Positions 6,397-26,704 of a stretch of DNA of 64,000 nucleotides are shown here, piece by piece. Below the pieces are notes generated by a model. It ran no database searches, had not been told where the DNA came from, and worked only from the letters and a program-made list of their open reading frames with translations. Position 1 is the stretch's first letter, and every line of letters starts with the position of its first letter. Source of the stretch: an uncultured Lachnospiraceae bacterium (lineage in GTDB: Bacteria; Bacillota; Clostridia; Lachnospirales; Lachnospiraceae); contig CACWQE010000007.1 in the NCBI GenBank assembly GCA_902762905.1, positions 1-64,000 on the forward strand. The letters are read 5' to 3'. A program made the position numbers and the translations under genes.

Positions 6397-9300
6397 TTAA
6401 ATATTGAACTTATTTCTGTTCGTAACATCAACATTTGAATACACTGGTATGTTATTATAACTTGGTATTACAAATATTGTATTATCCGTCAAGTCGAATA
6501 ATGTCTGCTGCAATCTAATTTTGATTCTTGCGAATGCCGTCTTTCCTTGATTATCCTTTGCCCATACTACTATATATGTATAGTTACCATAATTTGCAAA
6601 ATAATCAATGGTATGACCATCTTTATCCTTCTTTTCATTCAAACCTAACGTATCACCATAAGGATCACCATCTGTTGGTGCGAACTTATACATGCCTTTT
6701 CGAAGTTTAACATTAATCTTATTTTCCTCAATCTTAACCTTCTCATCTGCATTGTCCTGATCAAACGGTCCCTTATACTGATGAATCAATACATGATTTG
6801 CATCATCTGTATAATTATTAGAATAATCACCCTCCGGATTGATACTATCATAATTCAAATCATAGAATACTAATACTTCACTCAATCCACCTGACAGAGA
6901 ACTAAATTTCACATCAAAGTTAAACTCTGGATATTCGGTAACATTATCTAACTTGTACACAATATTACCTTCTTCATCTAACTTCATCTTGCCATTAGAA
7001 TCCTCTGTAATCTCTTTATTATCAGTATCTTTAATTGTTACCTTTGGTCGAGAACCCGAATTACGTACAGAATCTACTACGATATTAACATATAACATAC
7101 GTTCATCATTATTGTTCTTGTCCGCACCAGTTACAACAGAATGTCCGGCACCGCAATAGTGAACAGTTCCCTTTCCATACTGATATGAATATAAGAAGTA
7201 GTTATCCATACCATCATTTGGTGATGCAGCGTATAATGAAGATCTTGACTTGGCATCACCAGCAGTCGTTGCTAAGCTAGAACCCGCTAATGCATACCAT
7301 ACAGCCATGTTCGAATCTTCCAAATCAGCTGCATATGTCTGCGTATGAGTTGGTGAAATCGTAAGATTCTCACCTAATGTGAATGGATATGTTGTAACAA
7401 TACCCTTATTCACCTGCGTTGCCTTGTTCGTTCCACCAATGCTGTTATTATCATAATCAACACCGATAGAATACTTAATACTATCTTGCAAGTTATATTC
7501 CACATACTTATAAGGCGATGTCAAATGAGACGCTGTCTCGAATATACCAACAGAATCCGTAGTACCTACCAAACTGATGATACCAAACAGACTACCACCA
7601 TTACCTACATTAGAAAAATCCTTTGCAGACTGCTGCCATACTACTAAGTCTTCTTGTGCATCCCCTAAAATAGATTTCTGTGTCATGAAATATTTAGGAT
7701 CAGCATATTTGTATACCGGATACCGTACAATACTCGAGCTTGATGGAGACAGTACAAAAATCTGCGACCATGGATTCTTATAAGTTGTCGTTCCTGATGC
7801 ATCAATCGGCAAGTTATCCGCATATTGGATACTTTGTGTCTGTAAATAGCACAACTGCCAACTATATGCATTAGAATGTCCCCAATTCGACTTCTTGTCA
7901 TTCTTCGCATCTTCTATCGTATCATACAAATTAAATGTCATCCCAAATCCATCACCCGGACTTACTGTATTTCCTTCTACGATACTATATGGCTTATAGA
8001 TCGTATACGAATTACCTGCCGTCTTAGTCTTAGCATTTGGGAATGGTTCTACCAGACTTTCATCCTTACGTACCAAGTTAACAGTTACATCCTTGTTGGT
8101 CAAAGTAATCGGACCGTAATATACATCATCCACTGTATCATGTACATAAGCTAACTTGTAAGTACGATCAGTAACTGTTGGTGTAGTTGCATTAATACTA
8201 TCCAATGTCGCATGGAATCGATCTATACCAAACACGCTTCTAAGCTCAGTTGTAATATTGACAGATCCTGCACTTTCATAACGAGTTGTTGAATCATGTG
8301 TAGTAAGTAAAGAGCCACCATCTTCTATATATTTCTTAACGGCACTACATTCATTCACAGTCAAATCTTTACCACCAAAATCTTCCGCAAAACCTAACAC
8401 AACCATATCATAATTTGTACCTAACCAATTATCGGCTGTACATGCATAATCAGAATACTTCTTGTACAGATTATGATATTTCACTACATCATCATGTAAT
8501 TTGGTCCATTCTTCATAATAAGATAAATAAGTTGCATCCATATTATAATATCCTGAATAATACATAAAGTAATTATAATATGCTTCATGATCAATCCACT
8601 GCTGAATCTGATCAGCAGTAACAACACCCATGTTACCCTTCTTACCTGCTGAACCAACTTCGCCCTGTAGATTCTTAAGGAATGTCTCCATATTGCTTGT
8701 ACAACTACTCTTATTTAACTTGCCAAGTGCCTTCTGCCATTGCTCATAATAAGAATCCGCTTTGATCTGATAATACTCAATCCAAGTAATTGCATTGCCA
8801 TCACCATCCGTAACCGGAGTAATTGTATTACCATCTTCATCTTTTCTTTCAACACCATTCGCATTATCCATGGTAACCGGCTTGCCATCTACACCTGTAT
8901 TTGCTTCCACAATGCTAGAGACTTCATGGAACTCATCAATCAACATAATATCCAGATCAAAATCATAATCATTCGCTAATTCATCTGCAAAGTTGGTATC
9001 CCAATTATCTGCTCCATTCTTATCGTGATTATCAATCTTCTGACCATTACTATCATACTTAACAATACCAAACTTATGCTCATGCAATCCCGTATATGTA
9101 AGTTTTGCAAAATCCTTCTTCGTTCCTGTTGTATTATAATGAAAATCAGCTGCTGACTGCGATACCAGATTATATTTTGCTTTGTAAGCAGCCAACTGAC
9201 ATTCTGTACACATATACAAAGTATGTGCATCCTGGGAACCAACACCGAAACCTTCATTTGCAACTTCATCGACAGGCATAATCTGAAGGGTACGAACTTC

Positions 9301-12042
9301 TTTCTTTTCAACCTCATCTTCTCTTACATAATATGCATATCCTGTCTTCACATCACAAGCCTGTGCAGTAGTGATTCCCTGTGTATAAAGAGAAGCCACT
9401 AATTTCCAACTTACCAATCCGTAGAAATCATCCTGCGGAAATTCATATACTAACTCAACCTGCTCGCTTGATCCATTACTCGTTGCCTGACAAGTAACAA
9501 TCTTCTCATGACCAGCTCCACCATCTACAATTTCATCCTGATCAAAAGTTCCATCACCATCCTGATCTACATATAAAACAAGCTTGCATAACACATTACC
9601 ATTCAAAGTATTCGCATTTACCGTTCCAGTAATCTTCATGGAATTGTCTACCTTCTTGTTATATGTAGATTCATCTCCTCTTGAATAATCCTTTGGCGAA
9701 CTATTGATAATCAAACTTGGACGAGTTGCTGATGCCTGAATCACATTCTTTATCTCATCAGCAGTGGTCTGATTAAACACAGTTACATAATCTCCTGCCT
9801 TTGCACCATACTTCTTGTCCTTATTATCATTATATTCATCTTTCTTATCGTACGCTGAAATATCCAAGTCCCATTTTATGTTTGCAGCTGCTGCCATCGT
9901 TGCTGCCGAGCCATCGTTCGCCGCAGTAACTGTACTATCAACTCCCTTATATTCAGTTGGATTATACTTAAAGTACGCATAATCCAATAATTTGAACATA
10001 TTAGAATCAGGATCAATATCCTTTGACATTAATTTCTCTAGACGCGTCTTGTTATATACTTTCATATATGCCTGAGAAACTGCATCACTAAACACAATTG
10101 GCATACCTGCATCAATATAATCCTTCAACTCTTTTAACTTAATGGAAGTAATATCATTACCATTCAACAGCACATCTGTTACTAAATTCTCTGAATTAGC
10201 AATTGTTCCATATGGATTACCACCTAATCCACTACCGGAATTACTACCGTATCCCTGTAAATGAGTTGCAATACCAGTATGCGTATACATATCAAACGAA
10301 CTTACAAATTTACTCTGATTATATGCAATAAAATTAGAAATACCCGTATAGTTACCACCAAAATCTGAACGTAAGGTATATGGTGTCAACGCACTTGTAT
10401 TGCCACCAATATATACAAAATCGTATGTATCCAAAACCACATCTTTAGTTGAAATAAATTCATCTGTTGACATCTGATCTATCTGGATCTGATTGTAACT
10501 AAGACCAGTTGCTCTCGCAATCTTAGCTGGTGTCACCTCAAATGCATAATACTCTGCTCCATTTGCTTCATCAACCGTAGTATTGGATAATACATCTCCT
10601 GGGTTCGTATAGTAATTACCTTCTAATCCCATACTTGTTGCAACCGCTGCACCTGTCATTGGTGATTTCTTGGCTGCAATATCCATATCGATTGGATAAC
10701 ACGGCTGAATCTCTAACACACGAAACTTCTTACCGTTACGACCATTTGATTCTGACCCACGGTAATTAGATCCATTGATCAAATCCGCAATTAATTTTGC
10801 ACCTTCCGTTTTCTTTGCATCACCGGCAAAGAATCCATTATCTACCGGCAATACATAAGCATATTTTGCTTTATTATCTGAAGTAACCAAGTTATTATAA
10901 AGCTCTAAATACTTATTACCGCCATTACCACCACTGTTATCTTTAGGATCTACATTAGCAACATCATAAATGATATACTGCGTGCCATCCGCCATTGTCT
11001 TTAAGGTATTATACACCTCTTCTGTCTGCGGTGTTGTCACTTCCACTTTAACTGCGCTATTCTCAATAAAGATAAACTCATATCCTTCGAGATCTGCACT
11101 TGTCAATGTTGTAATATCTTTATAGTCTAATGTAAAGTTTTCTGGATAAAAGCTGGATTTACCATAATAGATAGAACTCATTAACTCTTTCTTGGCAAAA
11201 TCCTCCGCCATAGTTCCACCAGCACCAATCTGTCCTGGTCCCTGCAATACCAAAATTTTACCACTTGCCTGAGCACTAATAACTTTACTAAAATAATGAG
11301 AAGTTCCTACACCAGCAAGAAAATCTTCTGCCGATTGACTTCTGTCCCAACCAAATACTGGCGAATACAAATAACGTTCTGATATCTCATTAATCAATGC
11401 CTTATACGTTTTGGTTGTAACTACCGCATCTCCAGACTTCTTTGGCTTATCAATAATAATCGGCTTATGGTCTGTCATTGCATAATTATTCTTAATATAG
11501 CTATAAATATCATCATCCATAGCATAACTACCAGTGTATACAGTTTCATTCGGTGCTTCTAAATAAATTAAATCTGCATTACCAAGTAAACTACCAACTG
11601 ATTGACCTGCACTTACTTCTGTCGTCAATTTGACATTTGCATCAATTGCCAGATCTGTAACTTGTACCTTACCAGGTGCCATTGTAGCAGTCTTCTTTTC
11701 ACTATTAGCATCAATAACTAAATTTTTGAAATTAGCATCTGTAACCGCATACTGTTCAATTGCATGCGTTCCCGTCATATTAGATGGAATAATATGAACA
11801 ATATTGTACATATAATCTGCTTCTTTATTAGAATCCTCAATAATAAGATCAATATTAGAAACATATTCCATATAGCCAAGATTACCATCTAAAGGTGCTT
11901 CTCTGTTTTGTAAATCTGAATTAATCTTTTCTGATTCTCCAACTCCATTACCAGCTAATGTATAGGCAGCAACTGAAACACCGAAGATTGCAACAATCAG
12001 TAATGCAATTGTAATTAAAAGTTTTTTCTTTTCTTTTAACAT
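6397..12042 (-). CDS. Giant exported pilus-cluster protein, DUF5057-like (1881 aa)
   Basis: Last gene of the pilus cluster. Its N-terminus, MLKEKKKLLITIALLIVAIF, is a lysine-rich stub plus one hydrophobic segment (residues ~8-28): an uncleaved anchor or Sec signal, not a prepilin leader. Around residue 442 it has KFRVLEIQP and near residue 940 RTLQIMPVDE. At ~1214-1255 it reads MVVLGFAEDFGG then GGSLLTTHDSTTR, resembling a ThuA/glutamine-amidotransferase-type fold. I associate this combination with DUF5057 proteins of Clostridia; that assignment is from memory. Function is unknown; the position after the minor pilins suggests a tip adhesin or surface partner. The reading frame extends to a GTG at 12060, but that codon lies just before the AAAGGAG site, which is correctly spaced for the ATG at 12042. 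Confidence 0.7.
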   Translation of the reverse strand: MLKEKKKLLITIALLIVAIFGVSVAAYTLAGNGVGESEKINSDLQNREAPLDGNLGYMEYVSNIDLIIEDSNKEADYMYNIVHIIPSNMTGTHAIEQYAVTDANFKNLVIDANSEKKTATMAPGKVQVTDLAIDANVKLTTEVSAGQSVGSLLGNADLIYLEAPNETVYTGSYAMDDDIYSYIKNNYAMTDHKPIIIDKPKKSGDAVVTTKTYKALINEISERYLYSPVFGWDRSQSAEDFLAGVGTSHYFSKVISAQASGKILVLQGPGQIGAGGTMAEDFAKKELMSSIYYGKSSFYPENFTLDYKDITTLTSADLEGYEFIFIENSAVKVEVTTPQTEEVYNTLKTMADGTQYIIYDVANVDPKDNSGGNGGNKYLELYNNLVTSDNKAKYAYVLPVDNGFFAGDAKKTEGAKLIADLINGSNYRGSESNGRNGKKFRVLEIQPCYPIDMDIAAKKSPMTGAAVATSMGLEGNYYTNPGDVLSNTTVDEANGAEYYAFEVTPAKIARATGLSYNQIQIDQMSTDEFISTKDVVLDTYDFVYIGGNTSALTPYTLRSDFGGNYTGISNFIAYNQSKFVSSFDMYTHTGIATHLQGYGSNSGSGLGGNPYGTIANSENLVTDVLLNGNDITSIKLKELKDYIDAGMPIVFSDAVSQAYMKVYNKTRLEKLMSKDIDPDSNMFKLLDYAYFKYNPTEYKGVDSTVTAANDGSAATMAAAANIKWDLDISAYDKKDEYNDNKDKKYGAKAGDYVTVFNQTTADEIKNVIQASATRPSLIINSSPKDYSRGDESTYNKKVDNSMKITGTVNANTLNGNVLCKLVLYVDQDGDGTFDQDEIVDGGAGHEKIVTCQATSNGSSEQVELVYEFPQDDFYGLVSWKLVASLYTQGITTAQACDVKTGYAYYVREDEVEKKEVRTLQIMPVDEVANEGFGVGSQDAHTLYMCTECQLAAYKAKYNLVSQSAADFHYNTTGTKKDFAKLTYTGLHEHKFGIVKYDSNGQKIDNHDKNGADNWDTNFADELANDYDFDLDIMLIDEFHEVSSIVEANTGVDGKPVTMDNANGVERKDEDGNTITPVTDGDGNAITWIEYYQIKADSYYEQWQKALGKLNKSSCTSNMETFLKNLQGEVGSAGKKGNMGVVTADQIQQWIDHEAYYNYFMYYSGYYNMDATYLSYYEEWTKLHDDVVKYHNLYKKYSDYACTADNWLGTNYDMVVLGFAEDFGGKDLTVNECSAVKKYIEDGGSLLTTHDSTTRYESAGSVNITTELRSVFGIDRFHATLDSINATTPTVTDRTYKLAYVHDTVDDVYYGPITLTNKDVTVNLVRKDESLVEPFPNAKTKTAGNSYTIYKPYSIVEGNTVSPGDGFGMTFNLYDTIEDAKNDKKSNWGHSNAYSWQLCYLQTQSIQYADNLPIDASGTTTYKNPWSQIFVLSPSSSSIVRYPVYKYADPKYFMTQKSILGDAQEDLVVWQQSAKDFSNVGNGGSLFGIISLVGTTDSVGIFETASHLTSPYKYVEYNLQDSIKYSIGVDYDNNSIGGTNKATQVNKGIVTTYPFTLGENLTISPTHTQTYAADLEDSNMAVWYALAGSSLATTAGDAKSRSSLYAASPNDGMDNYFLYSYQYGKGTVHYCGAGHSVVTGADKNNNDERMLYVNIVVDSVRNSGSRPKVTIKDTDNKEITEDSNGKMKLDEEGNIVYKLDNVTEYPEFNFDVKFSSLSGGLSEVLVFYDLNYDSINPEGDYSNNYTDDANHVLIHQYKGPFDQDNADEKVKIEENKINVKLRKGMYKFAPTDGDPYGDTLGLNEKKDKDGHTIDYFANYGNYTYIVVWAKDNQGKTAFARIKIRLQQTLFDLTDNTIFVIPSYNNIPVYSNVDVTNRNKFNI

Positions 12043-12078
12043 TTCTCTCTCCTTTTCCACCTTACTTAAGCTTGTAAC

Positions 12079-12909
12079 TTAATCGCCCTTAATCCTTAAT
12101 AATTGTGGTTTCACAGTCAATACATTGGAATTACGGATATTAACTGTTTCATCCATCTTATAATTATAACCTTTATACTTTGAATCCTCTAACAACATAT
12201 TAAGCGACACTGCTCCCGCACTCGGATCTACAGAGACTTTAAAATCATTCACATAGGATGAAAGAAGTCCATCTTCTCCAACTGACCCTAGCGAATTGAT
12301 TGCATCGGTAAAACTCGGAACTGATCCCAATGCAAATTCACCTGAACGATACATTTTTAATTCTGTATCATCATATCCAAATATTACATATGATTTTTTA
12401 TCCGAAGATATATTATATTCAATATATATATACTTCGGTGTAATATATTTATATTCCTGTCCCGGATCATCAACCTTTTTCAATGTATTCTTTGACAATG
12501 CCCAAAATGATAAAACAGTTCCGGCATCACCATCCACTTCCGAACCAGCCTGTGGATACTTTTTCTTTTCCTTATTGTAAAGCTCACCCGTACTCAGATC
12601 AACGATAACTTCTCGCGGTTTCTCAGAAACCGTAGAATTGGACAACTGGTAATTTGCATAATTATCCGGTACATACGATGTTCCATCATCCGCTTCAACC
12701 CGGATATAAGTTGCCTGCATAATTGCTTCTGACAGTTGGGAATAGATTCTTTGCGCTTCCGTTTGCATCTGCATATTCTTTTTCGCTTTGCGTTGCGAAA
12801 TTAATGTAGAGGAAACAAAACCACTAATCATCACCATAATAATGGATAGAATGGCAATTGAAATCAGTAACTCGACCAGGGAGAATCCACTATTGTTTTT
12901 ACTTTTCAT
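12079..12909 (-). CDS. Minor prepilin, PilW/GspJ-like
   Basis: A 276-residue type IV prepilin. The class III leader reads NNSG/FSLVELLISIAILS: cleavage after Gly, Phe at +1, Glu at +5, then the hydrophobic helix that packs in the pilus core. The helix runs on into QRKAKKNMQMQTEAQRIYSQLSEAI, the arrangement typical of PilW/GspJ minor pilins ('...QAQRVLSQLSED.'). The globular part is otherwise unrecognisable. A GGGGGA site precedes the ATG. It sits between the GspH-like gene (20 bp upstream) and the giant DUF5057-like gene. In GspH-I-J-K systems, J joins I and K in the priming tip. Confidence 0.8.
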   Translation of the reverse strand: MKSKNNSGFSLVELLISIAILSIIMVMISGFVSSTLISQRKAKKNMQMQTEAQRIYSQLSEAIMQATYIRVEADDGTSYVPDNYANYQLSNSTVSEKPREVIVDLSTGELYNKEKKKYPQAGSEVDGDAGTVLSFWALSKNTLKKVDDPGQEYKYITPKYIYIEYNISSDKKSYVIFGYDDTELKMYRSGEFALGSVPSFTDAINSLGSVGEDGLLSSYVNDFKVSVDPSAGAVSLNMLLEDSKYKGYNYKMDETVNIRNSNVLTVKPQLLRIKGD

Positions 12910-12929: not shown

Positions 12930-13406
12930 TTATTTAATATAATGGTTGCCTGTGATACTGTCCAAATGAATGGTGGCAACCAGATTACCAGTTTTATCGT
13001 AAAACTGATAATCTCCTGCACCATTTCCATTTACTACAGCTCCTGTTGATTTATCAAACTGAATTGTAACCTTAGAAGTACAATCTGCACCATTGTATTT
13101 AATTGTAACGTACTTATCCCACTTCTCATACTCCGTTGTGGATACTGTCTTCGCACCATCCACAATCTTAAGCTCATATGTTGTTCCATTTAATACAAAT
13201 TCTGCCTTCATACTTTGTTGTTGCGAAGCAGTTGCTTTCGTCGTCATCCATAGGTTTGTCAATTGCGAATCAAAAGTAGTGATTGCATCCTGTATCTTTG
13301 CCTTACGAATTAACCCCACAGACACGACAGCCAATCCTGATAAAACTGCCATAATCGCAAGAACAATCAACATTTCGACTAAAGTGTACCCTTTGTTTTT
13401 TCTCAC
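12930..13406 (-). CDS. Minor prepilin, GspH/FimT-like
   Basis: A 158-residue prepilin starting at GTG (MRKNKG/YTLVEMLIVLAIMAVL): Gly before the cut, Tyr at +1, Glu at +5. The small C-terminal domain, with an alternating hydrophobic beta pattern and a terminal DKTGNLVATIHLDSITG segment, resembles GspH/FimT pseudopilins. It is 15 bp downstream of the large K-like gene and 20 bp upstream of the J-like gene, so it is almost certainly in one transcript with them. The in-frame start is GTG; a nearby ATG is out of frame. Confidence 0.75.
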   Translation of the reverse strand: MRKNKGYTLVEMLIVLAIMAVLSGLAVVSVGLIRKAKIQDAITTFDSQLTNLWMTTKATASQQQSMKAEFVLNGTTYELKIVDGAKTVSTTEYEKWDKYVTIKYNGADCTSKVTIQFDKSTGAVVNGNGAGDYQFYDKTGNLVATIHLDSITGNHYIK

Positions 13407-13421
13407 CTCATCACCACTCCC

Positions 13422-16337
13422 TTAATTGGTTACATCTGTAACATTTTTCTTCCAGTTAACAAACTCCAAAATGTCTCCGAACTGAATTGTTGTAATTGTT
13501 CTAGCATTCTCCGTATCGTCATCTAATGTAATATCTGTCTGACTCTCATCACCGCCATAACTACGGAATAATCCAAGTGCTGTACGATACAATGTATTAC
13601 TATCTTTGGCATTATCTTCGCATACACGCAACACCGATTTAACAACTTCCTGGTTAGCAATGAAATCCATATCATGACTTACGATAACTTTACCACCTGC
13701 CACTATCAAGCCTTCAAAACTGCTAATATTATCTTCAAATGTAACATCACCCTTACAAATGATAATACCTTTTAACGCAGTACCTGCTTTATTTGCCTTA
13801 ATTGTAATATCACCTTCATTTAACCATAATCCATAACCCGAATCATCTAAGTTTGGATTTGCAACATCTTTAATTACACTATTAGAAAATGTTGAGAATT
13901 TGAAATAATGATTAATCGGCGTAATTGCACTCTCCCCTATGGTATGTGCAAGTTCTACATCCGTAGCAACTGTATCTTCCGTTGTCAACAACAATTTCAT
14001 TTCTTTGTATTGATTTCTCAGTTTATTGGTTACAGCCAACGATAACACATCACCACTTGCAGATTCCGCATTCAGAATTGCATCGCCATTATCACCCTTA
14101 GCATCTTCACCTTCATTGATACGATTTGCCGCCTGAACCAAAGCTGCTGTTGACTTCTTGCTGTCAGCGACAATATTAAATGTATTACCAACTTTTATCG
14201 TCAATGCTGCATTAGAATAAATTCTTTCGAAATCAGTCTGTGTAGAATTATTCGCAGTTGGCAGTTTTAACATGTTAACCTGAAAATCTTCATAATCTGT
14301 AATATCCGTTAAATATGCTTTTGCAGCAGAAGTTGAACCATCTTCAAATAACTTACTGTATGCCGCAATAAACTTATTCACATCCTGATCATCTGCTTTC
14401 GCAGCTGTTGTGAAATCAAAATAGTAATATTTTTTTCCATCAATGATAGATACAACAACCGGAATCTTAGAAAGTGCTTTTTTCATTCCTTCCTTTGGAT
14501 CTGGCCACACATCTTTAAATGGTGACTCTGACAACACAGCTTCTGGAAGTGTTACATAATAACCTGTTACATTACCATCCTTATCTGTATCTTCCAATAA
14601 GGAACTCGGTGGAATATATGCAAGCTGATTACTCTTGATAGAAACAGCTTCACCTGTCTTGTAATCCTGTACCGCTTTGCGCTTCTTCCCCTTACTTGTA
14701 GCTGTATATTCCTTATCGCTTGTATAGTTGCCATCTTCATCATTGTTTGCATATGAGAATGTATGTACTTCTACATCTTCATTAACAACTTCTCCATCTT
14801 CATTAACGTAAGAACTCATCTCCTGAGTCTCCGTCTTTGTCTTCTTTGACAATTCAATATAAGACTGTCCCGCAATGTACATACTTGATACATCTTTAAG
14901 ATCTAAAGTTGCATTCTCACCATTAATAATAACAGAACTACTATTGTAATGAGCCTGACCAGTCTGTTCTGCATTCTTTGATTCATCCCAATTATGTGCA
15001 AATAGTCCATTCTTCTGTAAATATCTCGTTGAAAATGATCTATTGTCTGTTGTAGAATTATTATAGCCGTAATATTCACCAATCAAGGCAAATCTTGCTC
15101 CCGTCGCATTTACTTCCAAGTCATCTGAAATATAACAATTAGCATTCAGTGAAACTTCTGAACCTTTCAGTGATTTTCCACCTTTTTTCATAGAGTAACC
15201 ACCTAACACAATGCTATCTGCCCATATATCAGCTTTGCCAATTGTATTGCCACTAATTGCACTAACTGTAAGATTTGACATATTCATTGATGCAATCGTA
15301 CCAGGAACAACAATTTTATTCGCTGTAATAACAACATCAGAATTACTCATATAGATACCAGAATACATACTTGACTCTCTCGTACCATCATCCTGTAACT
15401 TGAATCTATTATCATCCAAATTGCCAGTTACACCATAAGAACATACCGGAACTGTATACATGTCTGCCAACTTATTACCTGCTCCGCCACTATTCAAGGA
15501 CGAATTTGCGGAGATTGCACCTTTGACGGTATCTGCTTTATCTCGATTAGTTACATCCGTGCCTGTTCCATTGTAGTCCTTGTTATAGAAATCAGATGCC
15601 GCATACACGTCACCAGTAATATTAACCTTAGAATTTGTAATCTCAATACCTTTATCTGCAATCATTGAAAACGAAAACAAATTATTCAACGAAGCATCTA
15701 TTGTTTGGAATGATACACTAAATTGCGGCTCTCCAATCACTAAGTCTGTTGTAATCGACTGTGTAAACTGTGTAGCACTACCCGTATTTCCAACCCTAAA
15801 TGTAGAATAATCTGCCGTTCTTGAAAGGGTTAGATTCAGCAAAGTAAGATTATCATCATTTGTATTCTCGACCTTCTGAATAGAAAGCTTAACGCCATCG
15901 TCTCCCACATCATCATAGCAATAAGACATATAACTCTTCAATTTAGCTTCCGCTTTAGGTACACTTTCATACTGTTCTGCCGCTTTTACCAACTTAATAA
16001 ATGTCTTTTTCAGCATTTTATTTGATGTTTCATTATCCATTGTAACATAAGACTTCGTTGTCGCATCATAATATACTACAACTTCTAGTGTACTTTCATA
16101 CGCCTCACTTAATTTCTGCATAGAATCAGCACCAACACCTGCATAGATTTCATCCATTGCCTGCTCTAAGTAATAGAAATTATCTCTCGAGTTAATATCC
16201 AGTGCTTTTAACTTGTAACATAATGCAATGGCTACAAGTAACGCAGATGTCAATACTGCAAGAAACGAAAGGGTTACAATAACCATAATAAATGTATTAC
16301 CTTGGTTATTATTATGTTTTTTTATTTTTTTCAACAT
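13422..16337 (-). CDS. Large PilX/GspK-like pilus tip protein (971 aa)
   Basis: The N-terminus NNNQG/NTFIMVIVTLSFLAVL has a prepilin-type Gly and hydrophobic helix (residues ~17-40), but residue +5 is Met rather than Glu. Loss of Glu5 is characteristic of GspK/PilX proteins, which cap the pilus tip. The rest is far longer than usual for GspK (~300 residues). It contains long stretches of short beta-strand units (for example IEITNSKVNITGDVYAAS near residue 230 and GLIVAGGKVIVSHDMDF near 890), suggesting a beta-helical or bactofilin-like solenoid. The start ATG overlaps the preceding stop (TAAATG), with GGGGGA just upstream. It is probably the K component of the minor-pilin complex and may itself be an adhesive head. 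Confidence 0.65.
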   Translation of the reverse strand: MLKKIKKHNNNQGNTFIMVIVTLSFLAVLTSALLVAIALCYKLKALDINSRDNFYYLEQAMDEIYAGVGADSMQKLSEAYESTLEVVVYYDATTKSYVTMDNETSNKMLKKTFIKLVKAAEQYESVPKAEAKLKSYMSYCYDDVGDDGVKLSIQKVENTNDDNLTLLNLTLSRTADYSTFRVGNTGSATQFTQSITTDLVIGEPQFSVSFQTIDASLNNLFSFSMIADKGIEITNSKVNITGDVYAASDFYNKDYNGTGTDVTNRDKADTVKGAISANSSLNSGGAGNKLADMYTVPVCSYGVTGNLDDNRFKLQDDGTRESSMYSGIYMSNSDVVITANKIVVPGTIASMNMSNLTVSAISGNTIGKADIWADSIVLGGYSMKKGGKSLKGSEVSLNANCYISDDLEVNATGARFALIGEYYGYNNSTTDNRSFSTRYLQKNGLFAHNWDESKNAEQTGQAHYNSSSVIINGENATLDLKDVSSMYIAGQSYIELSKKTKTETQEMSSYVNEDGEVVNEDVEVHTFSYANNDEDGNYTSDKEYTATSKGKKRKAVQDYKTGEAVSIKSNQLAYIPPSSLLEDTDKDGNVTGYYVTLPEAVLSESPFKDVWPDPKEGMKKALSKIPVVVSIIDGKKYYYFDFTTAAKADDQDVNKFIAAYSKLFEDGSTSAAKAYLTDITDYEDFQVNMLKLPTANNSTQTDFERIYSNAALTIKVGNTFNIVADSKKSTAALVQAANRINEGEDAKGDNGDAILNAESASGDVLSLAVTNKLRNQYKEMKLLLTTEDTVATDVELAHTIGESAITPINHYFKFSTFSNSVIKDVANPNLDDSGYGLWLNEGDITIKANKAGTALKGIIICKGDVTFEDNISSFEGLIVAGGKVIVSHDMDFIANQEVVKSVLRVCEDNAKDSNTLYRTALGLFRSYGGDESQTDITLDDDTENARTITTIQFGDILEFVNWKKNVTDVTN

Positions 16338-17846
16338 TTAATTTCCCCCTTTCGATCCAGATATAATCGGTAAAGAATTCTTATATTTCGTCATTCTTCC
16401 CGTCGTGCTGTCGACAGACAAATCAGCCAAGAAATCGCTATAATCTGATATATTATATGGCTTGTCTGATATATATATATCAACACTATATAATGGATTT
16501 TCAATCTGTGCAGCCTCGCTCATATTTTTCATATTTATCTGCTTAACGAAATTATAACCAGATACCATATTTGTGTCACCCGCTGGTACAACAGTATATT
16601 TGTTAACCGAAGAAATCGGTGTCTTAGTACCACCTGCATTTTCATCAAAGTTATGATAAACCTTTACATTATCTGCATCTGGATTATCACACATAATATT
16701 CACATTGACATTAGCACGCTCTTTAATCGCATCATTATTAATCAAATATGCATTTCTATAAGACTGCTCTACCTGATTCAACTGACTCTGTGACGGCTCT
16801 GTACCCGCATGTTCCTCTTTATACTGCACACGATATGCCTCTACAATACCTTTAATTGCATCTTCCGAAAACTGTTCTGCAGTCTCAACCACATACAATT
16901 CAACATTCTGATCAGATGACACTTTTGAAGTATTAAGCAAAATGTAATCATTATCCATATAATTACTATTATATAAACATGGATTGTACATTAAATATAT
17001 TGCAGGAAGTGTATCGTAAAAAGTCTGCTTATAAGGCACATACTCAATTGGTGACAAATAACTCGATAAACTCTTACCAGCATATACGCCATCTTTTAAA
17101 GTATATGTTGATTTATCTTTGTACCGTAACTTACAAGTTACTGTATATGTCTTTTTTGTTTCTCCATCTTTGATCTTGCTGCCTTCTTCAACCGATATTT
17201 CAACCACACGAGTTGCACTATCATTTGGAAACGCTACAATATCTGCCTGCTGTTTTGTATACTGTTCCCATCTGGCTTTGTCGCCAACACGTAAAATATC
17301 TAATTTCTTTGACATAAATGCATTTGTAACAGTCAGATCATAGTTGCCAATTGTACCATTAATAATCGCAAAATCTTTGGCATCAAAGTTGGCAATTGCA
17401 GGAAGAATTTGATTATTCGGATTTTCATATGTAGACTCATTTCCTTCTTTTTTTGCATATTCAATGTTATTCACATGAATAGCATAATAAAAATCTTCAT
17501 TCTTTCTTCCCACTTTTGCCTGGCCAGTCATTACATAGCCATCAAATGTCTTGCCATTAATCTGTCCGTTTCCTGCCACACCTTGTATTGTTCCAGCTTT
17601 AGTGGCATTCTGAACAGCTGCAGTCAATCCTGATTTGTTTGGATCAAAAAATTCATCATCTTCATTCTTAATGTTTTCCATTAAATTCTCTGCATATTCA
17701 TACTTATTCTGTGCAGTTTTCGACTTATTAGAGGTATTCATTGCAACAACTAGCTTACTTACTATTGGCCCGATCAAAATGCCAAATACAACAACAGCAA
17801 TCGCTAATTCTACAAACGTAACACCTCTATTATGGATTTTCTTCAT
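16338..17846 (-). CDS. Large minor prepilin, PilV/GspI-like (502 aa)
   Basis: Leader MKKIHNRG/VTFVELAIAVVVFG: Gly before the cut, Val at +1, Glu at +5, then a hydrophobic helix. After the helix, NKYEYAENLMENIKNED resembles the 'A..LAE.LME' region of PilV/GspI minor pilins. The ~450-residue globular part is much larger than typical family members and has no fold I recognise. The frame extends to a GTG at 17858, but the GGAGTGA site is correctly spaced for the ATG at 17846. The stop abuts the start of the K-like gene, indicating translational coupling, and the pilO-like gene lies 19 bp upstream. Confidence 0.7.
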   Translation of the reverse strand: MKKIHNRGVTFVELAIAVVVFGILIGPIVSKLVVAMNTSNKSKTAQNKYEYAENLMENIKNEDDEFFDPNKSGLTAAVQNATKAGTIQGVAGNGQINGKTFDGYVMTGQAKVGRKNEDFYYAIHVNNIEYAKKEGNESTYENPNNQILPAIANFDAKDFAIINGTIGNYDLTVTNAFMSKKLDILRVGDKARWEQYTKQQADIVAFPNDSATRVVEISVEEGSKIKDGETKKTYTVTCKLRYKDKSTYTLKDGVYAGKSLSSYLSPIEYVPYKQTFYDTLPAIYLMYNPCLYNSNYMDNDYILLNTSKVSSDQNVELYVVETAEQFSEDAIKGIVEAYRVQYKEEHAGTEPSQSQLNQVEQSYRNAYLINNDAIKERANVNVNIMCDNPDADNVKVYHNFDENAGGTKTPISSVNKYTVVPAGDTNMVSGYNFVKQINMKNMSEAAQIENPLYSVDIYISDKPYNISDYSDFLADLSVDSTTGRMTKYKNSLPIISGSKGGN

Positions 17847-17865
17847 GCCATGAATCACTCCATTC

Positions 17866-19110
17866 TTATTTGTAAATCTTCACTGAACCAGATTTACTAG
17901 CAACGTTTACACGTCCTGATGATGCATCATCATCCGCAACTTTTACGTAGACTGGAAGCTTAGATGTATTATTAATTGTAACCCTAACTCCAACCTTATC
18001 CTCTTCATCTTTCTTAGCAGATGACTGTAACAACACTTTAATATCCTCTGCTGAAGTTACTTCTGCTGTATAAGAAGTTGAATTATCCAAAACATATTTA
18101 CAATATGTCTTTCCATCTTCCTCATAGAAATCAAAACTTAATGTTGAAACACTATTATCACTATTAGAAATCACACTTGCATCTTTGCCTGAACCATTCT
18201 GTCCAACAACCTTAGCAGAAACATCACTTCCTGATGGATTCAATAAGGCATAGAAGTCATAACTATTCACGATTGCCGCACCATCATTTTCATCATACTT
18301 ATTAAGCGAAGAATCACTTCCGCTTGCAGAACCGCTTCCGCCCTCGAAAATATTACCTACACCAACTTCTACATCATCAAGATCAATTGAGCGAGGTGAA
18401 CGATCTGGGCTTTCAATTGCGTAACACATCAGATTCATCTTACCTGTATACAGATTATCTTCTGCATCATAAGCAATTTCAATACTATCTACAGTCATAC
18501 GATCTGTATATGTATCTACATAAGATACAATATCCTTAATTGCACTATAACTTCCTGTATATTCAATTGGAAAAGCTGCACGATAGCACTGATATCCAGC
18601 ATCCGTTGCATTCTCTGCTACGTCTGTTGTTCCGTCAGCTGCAGTTGTTGTCTCTGTTGTTGCTGTAGTCACCTCTGTAGTCGTCGCCTCTGTAGTTGCA
18701 GCAGTATCTGTTGTGCTACCATCTGTAAGTGCAGCATCTCCTCCTCCAACTCCTAATGTGTAGAATTGCTCTTTCTCGCCCAATCCTAATGACGTAACAT
18801 CAAATTCATAATCTTCTTTAATTCCCTGTAAGAACATAATGCTAATTTCCTGATTCAGATCTGCAGGAAATGAATTCATAATATCATCAAATTTTCCTTG
18901 ATATTCCTCTGTCTCAGCCAGATATTGATCACGTTTTGCCTGTTTACCCTGTAATTCCACCAATCTTGCTTGTAAAGTCTGATTCTCACTCTTAATTCTT
19001 GAAACGTCGTCCATATTAGGTTTTGCTACATATAATATTGACATTACAGCAATTACAACACCTACAAGTCCGATCAATAACGCTTTTTGTGAATTAGTAA
19101 TACTTCCCAT
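17866..19110 (-). CDS. pilO: Type IV pilus alignment protein PilO-like
   Basis: A 414-residue bitopic inner-membrane protein. One transmembrane segment (residues ~9-29, ALLIGLVGVVIAVMSILYVA) is followed by a coiled coil (ENQTLQARLVELQGKQAKRD) and the FPADLNQE motif usual at the start of the PilO ferredoxin-like domain. The domain is split by a Thr/Ala-rich low-complexity insert (~130-165) containing TTEATTTEVTTATTETTTAA. The C-terminal ~150 residues look like an extra beta domain. PilO pairs with PilN to link the motor and platform to the pilus. AGGAGGG precedes the ATG; it follows pilMN by 12 bp. Confidence 0.8.
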   Translation of the reverse strand: MGSITNSQKALLIGLVGVVIAVMSILYVAKPNMDDVSRIKSENQTLQARLVELQGKQAKRDQYLAETEEYQGKFDDIMNSFPADLNQEISIMFLQGIKEDYEFDVTSLGLGEKEQFYTLGVGGGDAALTDGSTTDTAATTEATTTEVTTATTETTTAADGTTDVAENATDAGYQCYRAAFPIEYTGSYSAIKDIVSYVDTYTDRMTVDSIEIAYDAEDNLYTGKMNLMCYAIESPDRSPRSIDLDDVEVGVGNIFEGGSGSASGSDSSLNKYDENDGAAIVNSYDFYALLNPSGSDVSAKVVGQNGSGKDASVISNSDNSVSTLSFDFYEEDGKTYCKYVLDNSTSYTAEVTSAEDIKVLLQSSAKKDEEDKVGVRVTINNTSKLPVYVKVADDDASSGRVNVASKSGSVKIYK

Positions 19111-19122
19111 TCTTCATCCCTC

Positions 19123-20760
19123 CTATTCTGCTGGAACTGTCTCTAATGTTGCATCTCCTGCATTCTGCTCATCAAGAGTTGCCTCATCCTCTTCATCCGT
19201 TGAAACAAATACAGCTGTCAAATTAAATGTACTAATCTCTTCGCCAGTCTCCTCATCTAACTCAGTTGCAATATCTGTAACAAATACATCATCAATGCAA
19301 TCAATTTTCTTTAATTGAATAATAAATTTGGCAATTGCATCATAATTCTTTGCTGTACCTTCCATTTTAATATCAGCATCCGTAGACGAATAAGTAGCAA
19401 TCTGCAAATCTTTCGGCTGATTCTTCTCTAACTCGTCAAACAGAGTTGAGAAATTCTCATTCAATGTCTTAGTCTGATCATACATACTCTTGATATCATC
19501 ATACTTAGCCATAACATCATCATGTTCACTAATAATCTGATCAATATCAGCAATTGCTGCAATCTGTGCATTTAATGAATTCTGTTCTGCCTGTGCATTG
19601 TTCTTCATAACAATCGTAGCCACAGATGCTCCTGCTGCAATCACAACACCAGCAATCAAAACACCTACTCCATACTTCATATAATCCGCACTATTAGCAC
19701 CCTTTGTCTTAACCTCTGTAGGACGGAATCCCATCGGTGCAAAAGCAGCACCAATCGGAGAGATTAAATATACTGGATTATAAATCTTAAGATCAATTTT
19801 AGGGTCGAACTTAACATTATATAAACTATCCATAATCTTGGTCTGGATGTTTAACTGAATCTTAAATAAACCATCAATACCACGAATCAGTGCACCATCA
19901 CCTGTTAAGAACACATCATCAATCGGCTTGTCTGGATTCTTTGCCACATAATAGTCAATAACACGACCAACGTTATTAATCAAATAACGAAATGCTCCTG
20001 TTGCTGCATTGTCGTCAAAATCAACTGTTACCAATCGTTCATTCTGTAATAATGTCATTGCTGTTGTCGCATCCACACCTTTTTCATCCATAACTTCTGT
20101 CACAACAGCATTCGTTCCATATGGGACAGTACGTTGTAACAACAACGTATCTCCTTTTACAATATTTAAAATTGTAGACTCACTACCCAACTGGATAACC
20201 ATTGTTGTCATAGTTGAACTTGTCTGTGTCTTGATCAACTGCAACATAGAATTACCAACATAATCCACTGCCTGTACAGTCAGTCCCAACATACTTCCCA
20301 ATTCATAATAGCCCTTCACCATTGCAATTGGAGCTGCAACTACCATCAATTTCAACTGCTTGCTCTTATCTTCATTGACAACATGTTCCAATATAGTATG
20401 AGACACAATATAATCTTCTACATTAACAGGGAAATATTCTGAAGCATTCGCTGCAACAATTCCCTTTACCTTATTCTCTTTTACATCTGGAATTAATACT
20501 TCACGGTTAACCGCTTTCGTAGAACTCAAAATAAAGATTGCGTTTTTATTGGTTACACCGTTTGCCTCTAATTGTTCCTTAATAGCTGCCGCAATCTTTT
20601 CAATATCCCGAAGTGCACCATCTTCATATGCATCTTCTGGTGTCTCAAATATTAATGCATTATGCACTACCGTCTGTTTCTTTGTTGAAGGTGATACTTC
20701 AACAATCGTAATACTTTCATTTGTTATTTCTATTGTTAAGACTTTATTACTCTTTGCCAT
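19123..20760 (-). CDS. pilMN: PilM-PilN fusion protein
   Basis: Residues 1-~345 are the actin-like ATP-binding PilM domain: VLTIEITNESITIVEV at the N-terminus, then EYFPVNVEDYIVSHTI and DDVFLTGDGALIRGIDGLF. One transmembrane helix (~361-384) and a PilN-like periplasmic part follow (coiled coil SLNAQIAAIADIDQIISEHD, then a ferredoxin-like domain with IKMEGTAKNYDAIAKFI and a final FNLTAVFV strand). In most bacteria PilM is cytosolic and binds the N-terminus of PilN; here they are one chain. A pilMN gene is known in Clostridioides difficile, so the fusion has precedent. GGGAGG precedes the ATG. The acidic C-terminal tail is unusual. Confidence 0.85.
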   Translation of the reverse strand: MAKSNKVLTIEITNESITIVEVSPSTKKQTVVHNALIFETPEDAYEDGALRDIEKIAAAIKEQLEANGVTNKNAIFILSSTKAVNREVLIPDVKENKVKGIVAANASEYFPVNVEDYIVSHTILEHVVNEDKSKQLKLMVVAAPIAMVKGYYELGSMLGLTVQAVDYVGNSMLQLIKTQTSSTMTTMVIQLGSESTILNIVKGDTLLLQRTVPYGTNAVVTEVMDEKGVDATTAMTLLQNERLVTVDFDDNAATGAFRYLINNVGRVIDYYVAKNPDKPIDDVFLTGDGALIRGIDGLFKIQLNIQTKIMDSLYNVKFDPKIDLKIYNPVYLISPIGAAFAPMGFRPTEVKTKGANSADYMKYGVGVLIAGVVIAAGASVATIVMKNNAQAEQNSLNAQIAAIADIDQIISEHDDVMAKYDDIKSMYDQTKTLNENFSTLFDELEKNQPKDLQIATYSSTDADIKMEGTAKNYDAIAKFIIQLKKIDCIDDVFVTDIATELDEETGEEISTFNLTAVFVSTDEEDEATLDEQNAGDATLETVPAE

Positions 20761-20806: not shown

Positions 20807-21607
20807 TCACATCCCCAACATGCCCAGATACCAGCTCACAAGCTGTTCACCGCATATCATTGTAATATAAACGCCCAAAGATAAATACGGGCCGAAAGCA
20901 AACTGTCGTCCGCTTTCCTTAATCTTCATTATAATCAGATGTATCACCGACCCTGCAATACAACCAATTCCTAATGCTATAAAATTAAGTTTCCAGCCTA
21001 ATAGTAAGCCAGTTGCTGCCATTAATTTGATGTCACCGTCCCCTATCACGCTACTTATCTCTTCACCATAACGCCGTCTCATAAGCGGCGTAGCAATCCA
21101 GTTCGTAACGCATAAAAAACCGCTGACTGCAATAAGACCAATTAAATATTGTAACCAATTAGAATAATCTGCAAATAAATGAATTAGTCCACACACACAA
21201 ATAATACAAGTATACTCCACTGGAATATACTGTGTCATCCAATCAACTATACTCAATGCCAAAAGCATTCCCGCAGAAATAATATATAGAACATTCTGTA
21301 TGTTATTGCCCCCTGACCAAAGGAGCAATCCAGATATTAAAATAAATGTACAACCAAACCATATATATTGCTGTGTCGTTGCCCTTTTTCTGGCACAACA
21401 TTGCTTTCGAACATTCAAAAACGCAACAAGCATAAACTCACTCACAACATTGCTCTTTCCATGAAAAAAATCTTTACGTGCAAAGCACGTCTCTTTTTTT
21501 TCACATTCTGCGCAATCCTGCTCCGCCACATATAACACATAATATGCAAGTGGTACACTCGTCGCACTCAGTATAATTGTCAATACAATTATTAAAATAT
21601 AATACAT
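20807..21607 (-). CDS. pilD: Prepilin peptidase (A24 family)
   Basis: A polytopic membrane aspartyl protease that removes prepilin leaders. Catalytic aspartates lie in SIVDWMTQYIP and in the hallmark GDGDIKLMAATG; FGPYLSLG near the end is also conserved. The N-terminal ~90 residues contain a CAEC pair and a later C and CC, but do not look like the standard N-methyltransferase domain, so the methylation function is uncertain. The frame can be extended to a TTG at 21646, but that codon lies beside the loop of a strong hairpin (21627-21657); the ATG at 21607 is preferred, with a weak AGGG site. Encoded right after the major pilin. Confidence 0.85.
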   Translation of the reverse strand: MYYILIIVLTIILSATSVPLAYYVLYVAEQDCAECEKKETCFARKDFFHGKSNVVSEFMLVAFLNVRKQCCARKRATTQQYIWFGCTFILISGLLLWSGGNNIQNVLYIISAGMLLALSIVDWMTQYIPVEYTCIICVCGLIHLFADYSNWLQYLIGLIAVSGFLCVTNWIATPLMRRRYGEEISSVIGDGDIKLMAATGLLLGWKLNFIALGIGCIAGSVIHLIIMKIKESGRQFAFGPYLSLGVYITMICGEQLVSWYLGMLGM

Positions 21608-21626
21608 ATCTTCATATACCCTAAAT

Positions 21627-21657
21627 GGTACATTCCCTATGTACAAGGGAATGTACC
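21627..21657 (-). promoter_or_regulatory. Stem-loop between major pilin and prepilin peptidase genes
   Basis: A perfect 11-bp inverted repeat (GGTACATTCCC / GGGAATGTACC) with a 9-nt loop starts 12 bp after the pilin stop codon. No T-run follows on the minus strand, so it is not a standard terminator. It is well placed to protect the pilin mRNA 3' end or to attenuate transcription into pilD. Confidence 0.75.
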
Positions 21658-21669
21658 TCTAAGTTGTTA

Positions 21670-22131
21670 TTATTTAAGGTTAGAACCAGTTTCTGGATAA
21701 ACCTCATTTGCTGCATTTGCATCACCAACATATACTTTAATTGTATTACTTGCTGCATCCAAATCAATGTAGAATGTCTGATCCATGGAGCCACCCTGCA
21801 TATCCTTCTTAGCCTTACCGGTCGGAACAGAAGTTGTACCCAAAGCAGAAGCAAACTCTGTCTTGAAACTGTCGCCTGACAAATCAGCTGCAGCCAATGG
21901 ATGCATTGACCATGAATTAGTTCCTGAAGGCGCTACATCAAACGCATTTTCATTAGACAATGCTGTTGTGATAGCTGTTGCAATTGTCTGTCCAGTCTGG
22001 ATATCTGTAGAGATTCTAGACTTGTTGATGTACTTGATCAATGCTGGTGCAAGAGCACCTGCTAAGATAGCCATAATCGCAATAACGATAATAAGCTCAA
22101 CCATTGAGAAACCTTTGTTTGTTTTTTTCAT
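21670..22131 (-). CDS. pilA: Major type IV pilin
   Basis: A 153-residue prepilin with a textbook leader, MKKTNKG/FSMVELIIVIAIMAIL: short basic leader, Gly at -1, Phe at +1, Glu at +5. The hydrophobic helix runs into ALIKYINKSRISTDIQTGQT, as in major pilins of Clostridia. The globular domain is small, has no Cys pair, and ends in ...YPETGSNLK. It is taken as the major subunit because it is small, directly follows a long structured leader region and precedes pilD. AAAAGGAGAG precedes the ATG. Flanking RNA structures suggest separate control of its level relative to the assembly genes. Confidence 0.88.
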   Translation of the reverse strand: MKKTNKGFSMVELIIVIAIMAILAGALAPALIKYINKSRISTDIQTGQTIATAITTALSNENAFDVAPSGTNSWSMHPLAAADLSGDSFKTEFASALGTTSVPTGKAKKDMQGGSMDQTFYIDLDAASNTIKVYVGDANAANEVYPETGSNLK

Positions 22132-22426: not shown

Positions 22427-23641
22427 TTACATATTGTCAATACCTTCGTACATACTAAGGATAGGACCGTATACTGCTGCTACAATCAAGCCTACAATAC
22501 CAGCCATCAATACCATAGTTAACGGTTCCATTGCTTGTGTCAAAGATTCTGTTGCAAGATCCACTTCTCTCTCATAGAGATCTGCAACCTTATCCATCAT
22601 GTCTTCAATATTACCTGTCTCTTCACCAATCTTAACCATCTGCACTAACATAGTCGGGAACACTCCCATATCCTTTAATGGTTTAGAAAGTGGAAGACCT
22701 TTTGCAACCTGCGCTTTTGTATCCATCAGTCCATCCCGGAAAATCTTGTTGTCCATCATCTTAGCAACCTGTTCAATTGCATCTAACATCGGGATACCTG
22801 CTGCCATCAAAGTGCTTAACGTTCTTGCAAATCTAGAAGCATTCGACTTAATTACCAAATCCTTGAAGATTGGTGCATTAATCGCAATCTTAGCTGAAAG
22901 CAACTGACCCGTTGGTGTTGCTTTGAACATCTTCACACCGAACACGATAGCTGCAATTATAACAACTAACAAGTACCACTTTGTTAATATAAAATTACTA
23001 CCTGCCATCATTAATCTAGTTGCCCACGGTAACTGGGTTCCCATATCTGCAAACATATCTACAAATGAAGGAATAACTGCAATCATAACTACAACGATAA
23101 CTAAGACAGCTACAATCATGACAATAATCGGATACGTTAACGCTCCCTTAATCTTACCCTTCAGCGCATCATCCTTCTCAAAGTGAGTAGACAGTCTTGC
23201 AAAAGAAGTCTCCATACTACCTGAAGCCTCACCAGCAGCTACCATGTTAATCATAATTGGTGGAAATACACTCGGATTCAAACGCATCGCATCTGAGAAT
23301 GTTCCACCTTTCTCTACATAAATCTTCGCCTCTACCAACGCATTCTTAAGTGTCTTATTGTCCATCTGTTCTGACAACATCTCTAACGCCGTAATTACCG
23401 TAACACCAGCATTCAAAATACTTACCATCTGTTTACACAATATCGACAGATCACGACTCTTCACCTTTTTCTTTCCGATGCTGATTCCTTTTCCAGTAGA
23501 TTCACCTGCATCTTTCATCTCTGTCACTGACAGGCCTTCTGACTTCAGCTTGTCCATCGCTTTCTCACGATCTGCTGCATCAATGGTTCCCTTCTTAGCT
23601 TTACCATTGGCATCTACTGCCTTGTAATTAAACTGTGCCAT
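22427..23641 (-). CDS. pilC: Type IV pilus inner-membrane platform protein PilC
   Basis: A 404-residue GspF/PilC protein on which PilB and PilT act. It starts MAQFNYKAVDANGK, the family's usual opening, and has two GspF domains (~65-190 and ~270-390), each with the conserved 'LSTLLAAGI/ILNAGV...AL' pattern (CKQMVSILNAGVTVITALEM and ARTLSTLMAAGIPMLDAIEQ) and G-E-x-S/T-G-x-hxxxh motifs (AAGEASGSMETSF, KIGEETGNIEDMM). Three hydrophobic segments are visible. The frame extends seven codons upstream (23662), but GGAGGAG is spaced correctly for the ATG at 23641. Confidence 0.92.
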   Translation of the reverse strand: MAQFNYKAVDANGKAKKGTIDAADREKAMDKLKSEGLSVTEMKDAGESTGKGISIGKKKVKSRDLSILCKQMVSILNAGVTVITALEMLSEQMDNKTLKNALVEAKIYVEKGGTFSDAMRLNPSVFPPIMINMVAAGEASGSMETSFARLSTHFEKDDALKGKIKGALTYPIIVMIVAVLVIVVVMIAVIPSFVDMFADMGTQLPWATRLMMAGSNFILTKWYLLVVIIAAIVFGVKMFKATPTGQLLSAKIAINAPIFKDLVIKSNASRFARTLSTLMAAGIPMLDAIEQVAKMMDNKIFRDGLMDTKAQVAKGLPLSKPLKDMGVFPTMLVQMVKIGEETGNIEDMMDKVADLYEREVDLATESLTQAMEPLTMVLMAGIVGLIVAAVYGPILSMYEGIDNM

Positions 23642-23673
23642 TCTAACTCCTCCACCATTCATCTTCCATTCAT

Positions 23674-23704
23674 ACTATATTCGAATTCTATTCTCTTCCG
23701 TCAA
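23674..23704 (-). promoter_or_regulatory. Possible promoter upstream of pilC
   Basis: TTGACG (23699-23704) and TATAGT (23674-23679) with a 19-nt spacer, about 33 bases before the pilC start. The spacer is longer than the ideal 17. The pilT-pilC gap of 189 bp makes an internal promoter reasonable. Confidence 0.35.
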
Positions 23705-23830
23705 CAATCGAACAAATTATGAACATTTTATTAACAAATTATTATTTATGTATGATAATACCTTATCTTGTTCAAAATTGCAATAATTATTTGAGAAAAA
23801 AAGGAATTATTATTAATTTTTGCCAATAGT

Positions 23831-24883: not shown

Positions 24884-24949
24884 CTCTGTTCCCCTTTCCT
24901 CTTGTCACCTTTTGTTATCTCTTTCCTTGAACCTCATTCATGGTATATT

Positions 24950-26668: not shown

Positions 26669-26704
26669 ATGCAAAAACCTCTCATAAAATTTAATTGCTT
26701 TTAT

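Follow-up and report, generated by a model that had tools for sequence, protein, structure and literature searches.

Tapirins of Caldicellulosiruptor are described in a review as cellulose adhesins (PMC7142884). A solenoid within a tip pilin is already known from ComZ of Thermus thermophilus, whose pilin domain is, according to its authors, closest to that of GspK (PMC6561018), and modular pilins are widespread (PMC8179133). K subunits, which lack the glutamate at mature position 5 (Glu5), are reported to cap the tip complex (PMC10191384; PMC9934059), and how monoderm type IV pili hold surfaces without PilY1 is presented as an open question (PMC6916266, PMC9934059). Here, we describe a gene in a 64,000-nucleotide stretch of DNA (hereafter, the window) from an uncultured Lachnospiraceae bacterium with relatives in animal guts (GenBank assembly GCA_902762905.1, contig CACWQE010000007.1, positions 1 to 64,000 of the forward strand). 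Located at the K slot in an operon for a type IV pilus, the gene encodes a protein of 971 amino acids (aa), which is probably a K-type tip-capping minor pilin with a predicted beta-solenoid that would act as a tapirin-like adhesin module.

The gene and its family

The open reading frame (ORF) at positions 13422-16337 (-) is a real gene. It comprises 971 codons, whereas no stop-free run exceeded 256 codons when the window was shuffled 20 times, and its ATG start comes immediately after the stop codon of the preceding pilin gene and follows GGGGG, a stretch resembling a ribosome-binding site. The N terminus of the protein reads MLKKIKKHNNNQG before and NTFIMVIVTLSFLAVLTSALLVAIALCYKL after the putative cleavage site, with Gly at -1, Met at +5, and a predicted mature start of NTFIM that leads into a hydrophobic helix. 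The gene and its N-terminal features are as follows.

13422..16337 (-): K-slot minor prepilin, 971 aa, ~106 kDa unprocessed; relatives in 79 loci (best 80 of 94)
16299..16337 (-): leader peptide, residues 1-13, ending in the invariant Gly-1 (Gly in 72/72); predicted cleavage
16284..16286 (-): mature position 5, Met in place of Glu (Glu in 0/72)

A protein search over 98 genomes, including the host genome, identified relatives in 30 genomes, which belong to 9 of the 69 genera covered. When 84,980 species genomes were scanned, 94 relatives were obtained, and the best 80 of these were retained, representing 79 distinct loci. The titles of 77 loci name Lachnospiraceae, Clostridium, Eubacterium, or other clostridial groups, and those of the remaining two name Bacteroidales or Bacteroides; the latter draft contigs (L047 and L052) hold the full clostridial operon and are probably mislabelled bins. 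A search of viral contigs returned 130 pattern matches and no relative. Recoding of an in-frame TAG seen in three relatives was considered and rejected because their ORFs end at that codon, and TAG is therefore a normal stop that had been read through by the search.

The window protein was aligned with those of 71 of the 79 loci (alignment A2, 72 proteins; the eight others were cut, open-ended, or shorter than 800 aa). Gly-1 is invariant (72/72), and position 5 is occupied by Met in 33, Leu in 23, Val in 12, Ile in 2, and Thr and Phe in one protein each, and never by Glu. The prepilin-like Gly and the hydrophobic helix noted in the initial annotation of this DNA are present. Its further statement that the protein has lost Glu5 is correct as to the residue found, but holds only for the family as a whole, since no member carries Glu; a recent loss in one gene was therefore rejected. 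Likewise, the window protein is about three times as long as the usual GspK (~300 residues in the initial annotation), but this is the norm of its family rather than a peculiarity, the lengths in A2 ranging from 842 to 1209 aa (median, 1004).

In the partner pilins, the G-x4-E motif is present within the first 60 residues in 64/66 PilA-like, 70/76 I-slot, 71/74 H-slot, and 74/74 J-slot proteins. All six I-slot exceptions carry Asp5, and the three H-slot exceptions have Ala-1 yet retain Glu5. Since these pilins nearly always have Glu5 or Asp5 and the K family never has Glu5, its absence is, as judged from the alignments, a mark of the K slot, matching the tip-capping K subunit reported elsewhere. 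Directly upstream of the K gene, an I- or J-labelled pilin gene is present in 76 of the 79 loci, and directly downstream an H gene in 74; in the other three and five loci, respectively, the K gene is cut by the contig or locus end. The gene for the 971-aa protein takes the K position in a conserved operon for type IV pili, which supports its initial annotation as GspK/PilX-like. The name PilX was rejected as a link to Neisseria PilX, which is described as dispensable and spread along the filament (PMC10191384).

A Pfam and NCBIfam scan of the 971-aa protein gave nothing below 0.05, and among 60 relatives only four match PilX_N (PF14341), none above the cut-off. Of the 12 divergent K proteins that make up a wider profile (A3), six match PilX_N at E values of up to 0.5 (best, 2.2e-7), and a distant relative, L134, scores 26.6 bits against a cut-off of 25.5. 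Within the phylum, 158 of 299 genomes contain A3 matches, among those listed mostly through the N-terminal region, and within the class a narrower profile (A1) has matches in 21 of 196 genomes. A 177-aa K-like protein in another clostridial genome (L137:4262-4795) leaves no room for a solenoid, indicating that the solenoid insert is not universal.

Predicted structure and fold matches

AlphaFold models were obtained for the window protein, built on A2 (mean predicted local distance difference test score 81.1, predicted template modelling score 0.75), and for an 846-aa relative that is 33% identical to it (L110; 79.0 and 0.67, respectively). Both models have the same order of elements, which in the window protein are as follows.

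15717..16298 (-): predicted N-terminal helix and sheet of pilin type, residues 14-207 (two helices, 15-48 and 55-86, then strands in 88-202 interspersed with helices in 102-136)
14802..15695 (-): predicted beta-solenoid, first part, about residues 215-512 (AlphaFold model and fold match)
13848..14582 (-): predicted mixed alpha/beta stretch interrupting the solenoid, residues 586-830 (model secondary structure; conservation 0.25)
13659..13847 (-): predicted beta-solenoid, closing part, residues 831-893 (model and conservation)
13434..13469 (-): predicted last strand, residues 957-968, with a probable return to the pilin sheet (models, small-fold matches, conservation 0.55)

The solenoid strands of the window model lie at about residues 223-512 and then 831-893, and the final strand after the solenoid has 12 residues in the window model and 10 in the L110 model. 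The long solenoid-like repeat body proposed in the initial annotation is recovered as a predicted solenoid, but one that is broken by the mixed stretch of ~245 residues and by poorly conserved loops. Conservation values calculated from A2 are 0.51-0.60 for the helix, 0.33 for the remaining pilin domain, 0.44-0.52 for the solenoid strands, ~0.16 for the loops, and 0.55 for the last strand. The solenoid strands of this family are thus conserved about as well as the helix and better than the remaining pilin domain; a fast-changing solenoid is found in the tandem tapirin pair described below.

Several small alpha+beta folds match residues ~115-121 onward plus a C-terminal stretch that starts at about 957 or 964 and ends at 971 (80-90 aligned residues, Z ~4; VIA-align). 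Because these folds span the N-terminal sheet and the C-terminal end, the last strand is probably part of that sheet, and because it follows the solenoid, the latter looks inserted rather than fused to the C terminus. The succession of helix and sheet, solenoid, and last strand fits the element order of ComZ in both models, with the pairing of the last strand deduced from the small-fold matches.

In the VIA-align rankings, the top match of the window model was tapirin 6n2c (Z 15.0, 292 residues, 4.0 A, 12% identity), and that of the L110 model was tapirin 6n2b (Z 18.9, 284 residues, 3.8 A), followed by 6n2c with Z 18.4 over 299 residues at 4.1 A. ComZ was the next family after tapirin in both lists, with Z values of 7.3 (window) and 9.3 (L110) that lie in the range the tool terms common, and the best other solenoid reached 7.2 and 8.1, respectively. 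On these models, the closest solved fold of the solenoid is that of tapirin. The A2 and A3 profiles gave nothing below 0.05 against PDB sequences.

Tapirins and the K slot

The A3 profile was compared with a set of tapirins (A5) using hhalign, with E values given for single comparisons. The full sets matched with an E value of 3.2e-11 over 378 columns, and with 3.5e-12 after removal of the window and L110 rows from A3. Values of 5.3e-6 (75 columns, in the helix region), 1.8e-6, and 5.7e-5 were obtained for tapirin residues 1-243, from residue 61 on, and from residue 244 on, respectively. As controls, six column shuffles gave 0.37-0.92, and the reversed A3 alignment gave 0.032.

Proteins of 642-660 aa from three genomes (G448, G574, and G425) are among the A3 matches. 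These genomes appear to be Caldicellulosiruptor, given the match of a G448 protein to 4wa0 and the likeness of the other two. The comparison with PDB was made for both proteins of a tandem pair in G448 (locus L174): that at L174:6812-8737 matches 4wa0 with an E value of 1.1e-202 over 358/358 residues and 6n2b with 5.4e-84, and its tandem neighbour matches 6n2b with 1.3e-82; the proteins in G574 (L175) and G425 (L176) share 54-90% identity with the L174:6812-8737 protein. The two L174 tapirins begin with G/SVLIV and G/STLIV (the slash marking the predicted cleavage site), i.e. with prepilin starts that lack Glu5. They directly follow genes for PilM_2, PilN, a T2SSM-like protein (2.8e-5, under the cut-off), and an N_methyl pilin with Glu5; additional N_methyl pilins and a leader peptidase are also encoded upstream. 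L175 has the same gene row as L174 by gene sizes and N termini, and no pilin gene was called directly after the tapirin pair in either locus. By gene order and N-terminal sequence, the tapirin genes of these two genomes are K-slot prepilin genes. The 6n2b library chain covers 354/577 residues and is aligned from residue 202 on, and thus the tapirin N-terminal domain seems not to be resolved in it.

That tapirin genes lie close to type IV pilus genes has already been published. Among the papers listed in literature searches, with accented spellings outside their reach, none calls tapirins pilins, and neither tapirins as K-type prepilins nor a Bacillota family with a tapirin fold in the pilus tip slot was found there.

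Further observations concern these or similarly labelled genomes. The tandem tapirins of L174 (4432-8737) are identical at 188/188 positions in residues 56-243 but agree at only 140/372 in residues 244-620 (38% in the solenoid), i.e. a constant carrier with a variable solenoid, as if gene conversion had kept the carrier alike. In L176 (5311-12979), the tapirin-like gene lies among transposase-like genes, and a second copy of 507 aa starts inside the pilin domain and has no prepilin start; with such surroundings and a headless copy, the slot is unreadable there. Two loci with the same genus label, L177 (4838-7531) and L178 (6417-9113), carry K proteins of 897-898 aa in the slot, followed by a protein of 657-667 aa. 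The L178 K protein has no PDB match below 0.7, and these proteins may be the 'atypical tapirins' mentioned in a review (PMC7142884).

Operon organization and neighbouring genes

The gene order in the window is pilB, pilT, pilC, pilA, pilD, fused pilM-pilN, pilO-like, I, K, H, J, DUF5057, and a leucine-rich-repeat (LRR) gene. The neighbours of K are as follows.

22427..26674 (-): pilC, pilT, and pilB, platform protein and two ATPases (T2SSF 5.3e-60; T2SSE 1.8e-45 and 4.2e-132)
21670..22131 (-): PilA-type pilin, 153 aa (N_methyl 3.5e-8), putative 'major' pilin by position
20807..21646 (-): prepilin peptidase PilD (Peptidase_A24 2.6e-13)
19123..20760 (-): fused PilM-PilN, 545 aa (PilM_2 5.8e-25, PilN 1.4e-8)
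17866..19110 (-): PilO-like protein, 414 aa, named by position (best Pfam match 0.017, to an unrelated family)
16338..17858 (-): I-slot (GspI/PilV-type) minor prepilin, 506 aa, Glu5 (N_methyl E 5.7e-4, 19.8 bits, cut-off 21.2)
12930..13406 (-): H-slot minor prepilin, 158 aa, Glu5 (N_methyl 2e-9)
12079..12909 (-): J-slot minor prepilin, 276 aa, Glu5 (N_methyl 9.9e-9)
6397..12060 (-): giant DUF5057 protein, 1887 aa, directly after J (PF16480 4e-30)
873-6308 (-): BspA-type LRR protein, 1811 aa, after DUF5057 (LRR_5 6e-116)

Among the 74 loci with J, the next gene encodes a DUF5057 giant in 63 and an LRR protein in one (L062), and in 10 it matches no window gene. The sequence ends within 1.5 kb in three of these 10 loci, and the other seven have an 885-1225 aa ORF at this place; a scan of six of these detected PA14 above the cut-off in 6/6 and a weak CBM35 match in 3/6. 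The position after J looks like an exchangeable slot for large effectors, and the large protein that it encodes is perhaps a monoderm counterpart of PilY1. No paper mentioning DUF5057 by name was found in the literature searched.

A second row of pilus genes, cut by the contig end, is present in the host genome (L031, G000:C102, 1-3517). It comprises the end of PilM/N, a PilO-like gene, a 360-aa pilin with Glu5, and at least 396 aa of a K-like protein that begins G/ASLLA.

Proposed role and alternative explanations

In the explanation that we consider probable, the protein would be the K subunit, a minor pilin without Glu5, in the type IV pilus of a monoderm. PilD of the same operon would cleave it after Gly-13, and it would be assembled first, together with the I, J, and H minor pilins, starting the filament. 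K would then cap the filament tip, because no subunit could dock above it. The tapirin-like solenoid, of ~360 residues, interrupted by the 245-residue stretch and predicted to lie between the body of the pilin domain and the returning last strand, would be carried at the tip and point outward, where it would most likely bind a surface. The first ligand candidate is plant fibre or plant cell wall, a reasonable choice in view of the glycoside hydrolases of the host genome (two GH9 and four GH5 proteins score above the Pfam cut-off); DNA, which ComZ binds, or host glycans are also possible. PilY1 and GH48 gave no match in the host genome in searches in which no control registered, and which thus do not show absence. 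The likely meaning is that of the initial proposal, tip-capping and adhesion combined in one chain, but with a solenoid that looks inserted rather than fused to the C terminus. The tip cap itself may be the grappling hook of the pilus.

Several results weigh against this explanation. The A2 alignment alone matches the tapirins over just 29 columns (probability 4, E 0.011), and its E values of 0.0041 for tapirin residues 1-243 and 0.033 for residue 244 onward are no better than the reversed-A3 control (0.032); in the absence of a significant A2 match, the link between the window protein and tapirins rests on the structure match and the bridging family. Even A3 gives no profile match to tapirin residues 61-243, the presumed pilin head (0.43). 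T2SSK and PilX_N profiles do not match the 971-aa protein itself. Plain Foldseek returned no PDB match at E 0.001 or better for either model, VIA-align re-ranks only Foldseek's own list, and the ComZ match has a root mean square deviation of 15-16 A over two domains. No fold unrelated to GspK, the outcome named beforehand as contrary, was seen in the first 100 residues, but no GspK chain appears in the fold lists of either model, which excludes nothing; the link to GspK runs through ComZ. Moreover, the host genome is a draft in 102 contigs, and adhesion could in fact be the task of the DUF5057 and LRR proteins encoded nearby.

This last point leads to a division of labour like that of PilY1, in which K would be a structural cap and assembly initiator only and the solenoid a plug or docking platform for the DUF5057 protein as the true tip adhesin. 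The DUF5057 gene, three genes downstream of K, follows J in most loci, PA14-containing proteins take its place in others, and PilY1 is stated to be absent in monoderms (PMC9934059), which leaves its role open; however, this reading presupposes that the DUF5057 protein becomes part of the pilus, and tapirin, the closest fold, is described in a review as binding cellulose itself (PMC7142884). We regard this division as unlikely. It is highly improbable that K is instead a minor pilin along the shaft or part of a short, secretion-type pseudopilus: parts of the operon are common to type IV pili and type II secretion, and shaft-inserted minor pilins are reported in C. difficile (PMC9556784), but a pilT-type ATPase gene is present in the operon, the absent Glu5 fits the top position (PMC9934059), and a steric argument for that position was made for ComZ (PMC6561018). 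A membrane-anchored surface protein that merely resembles a prepilin and stays unprocessed is even less probable; the window protein misses every prepilin profile and its processing is a prediction, but Gly-1 in all 72 proteins and the slot between pilin genes argue otherwise, as do distant relatives, such as L134, that match PilX_N.

If cap and adhesin form one chain, the question of surface hold without PilY1 could be addressed directly, through a purified domain and the deletion of a single gene, and tapirins would gain a place at the end of a retractable fibre. Tentatively, and with a likelihood that we place somewhat below even, this may extend across Bacillota: the Glu5-less K tip pilin would be a surface adhesin with a tapirin-type solenoid and a one-chain counterpart of diderm PilY1, and tapirins would be its first characterized members.

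Comparison with known systems

The tapirins of Caldicellulosiruptor (PDB 4wa0, 6n2b, and 6n2c) share with the K family the solenoid fold (Z 15.0 for the window model and 18.9 for L110), a prepilin N terminus without Glu5, and a gene position after PilM-PilN-PilO-like-pilin genes. They differ in being 642-660 aa rather than 971 aa long and in occurring as a tandem pair in L174 and L175 with no pilin gene called directly after, and they are linked by profile only via the wider K family, with no significant match to the window family alone.

The minor pilins PilB and PilC of Streptococcus sanguinis also carry an adhesive module (PMC8179133, PMC9934059), but theirs is a C-terminal vWA or lectin module on a pilin with Glu5. 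GspK, PilK, and PilX-type subunits resemble the window protein in lacking Glu5 and in their slot among H, I, and J (PMC10191384, PMC9934059), whereas GspK is reported to have an inserted alpha-domain in place of the predicted solenoid, and the window protein has no T2SSK match. ComZ of T. thermophilus (PDB 6qvi) has a pilin fold whose last strand is preceded by a large solenoid, and it is likewise a proposed tip pilin (PMC6561018). It differs from the window protein in that its construct ends at residue 554, it belongs to a diderm competence pilus and binds DNA, and its solenoid is, according to its authors, closest to an ice-binding protein.

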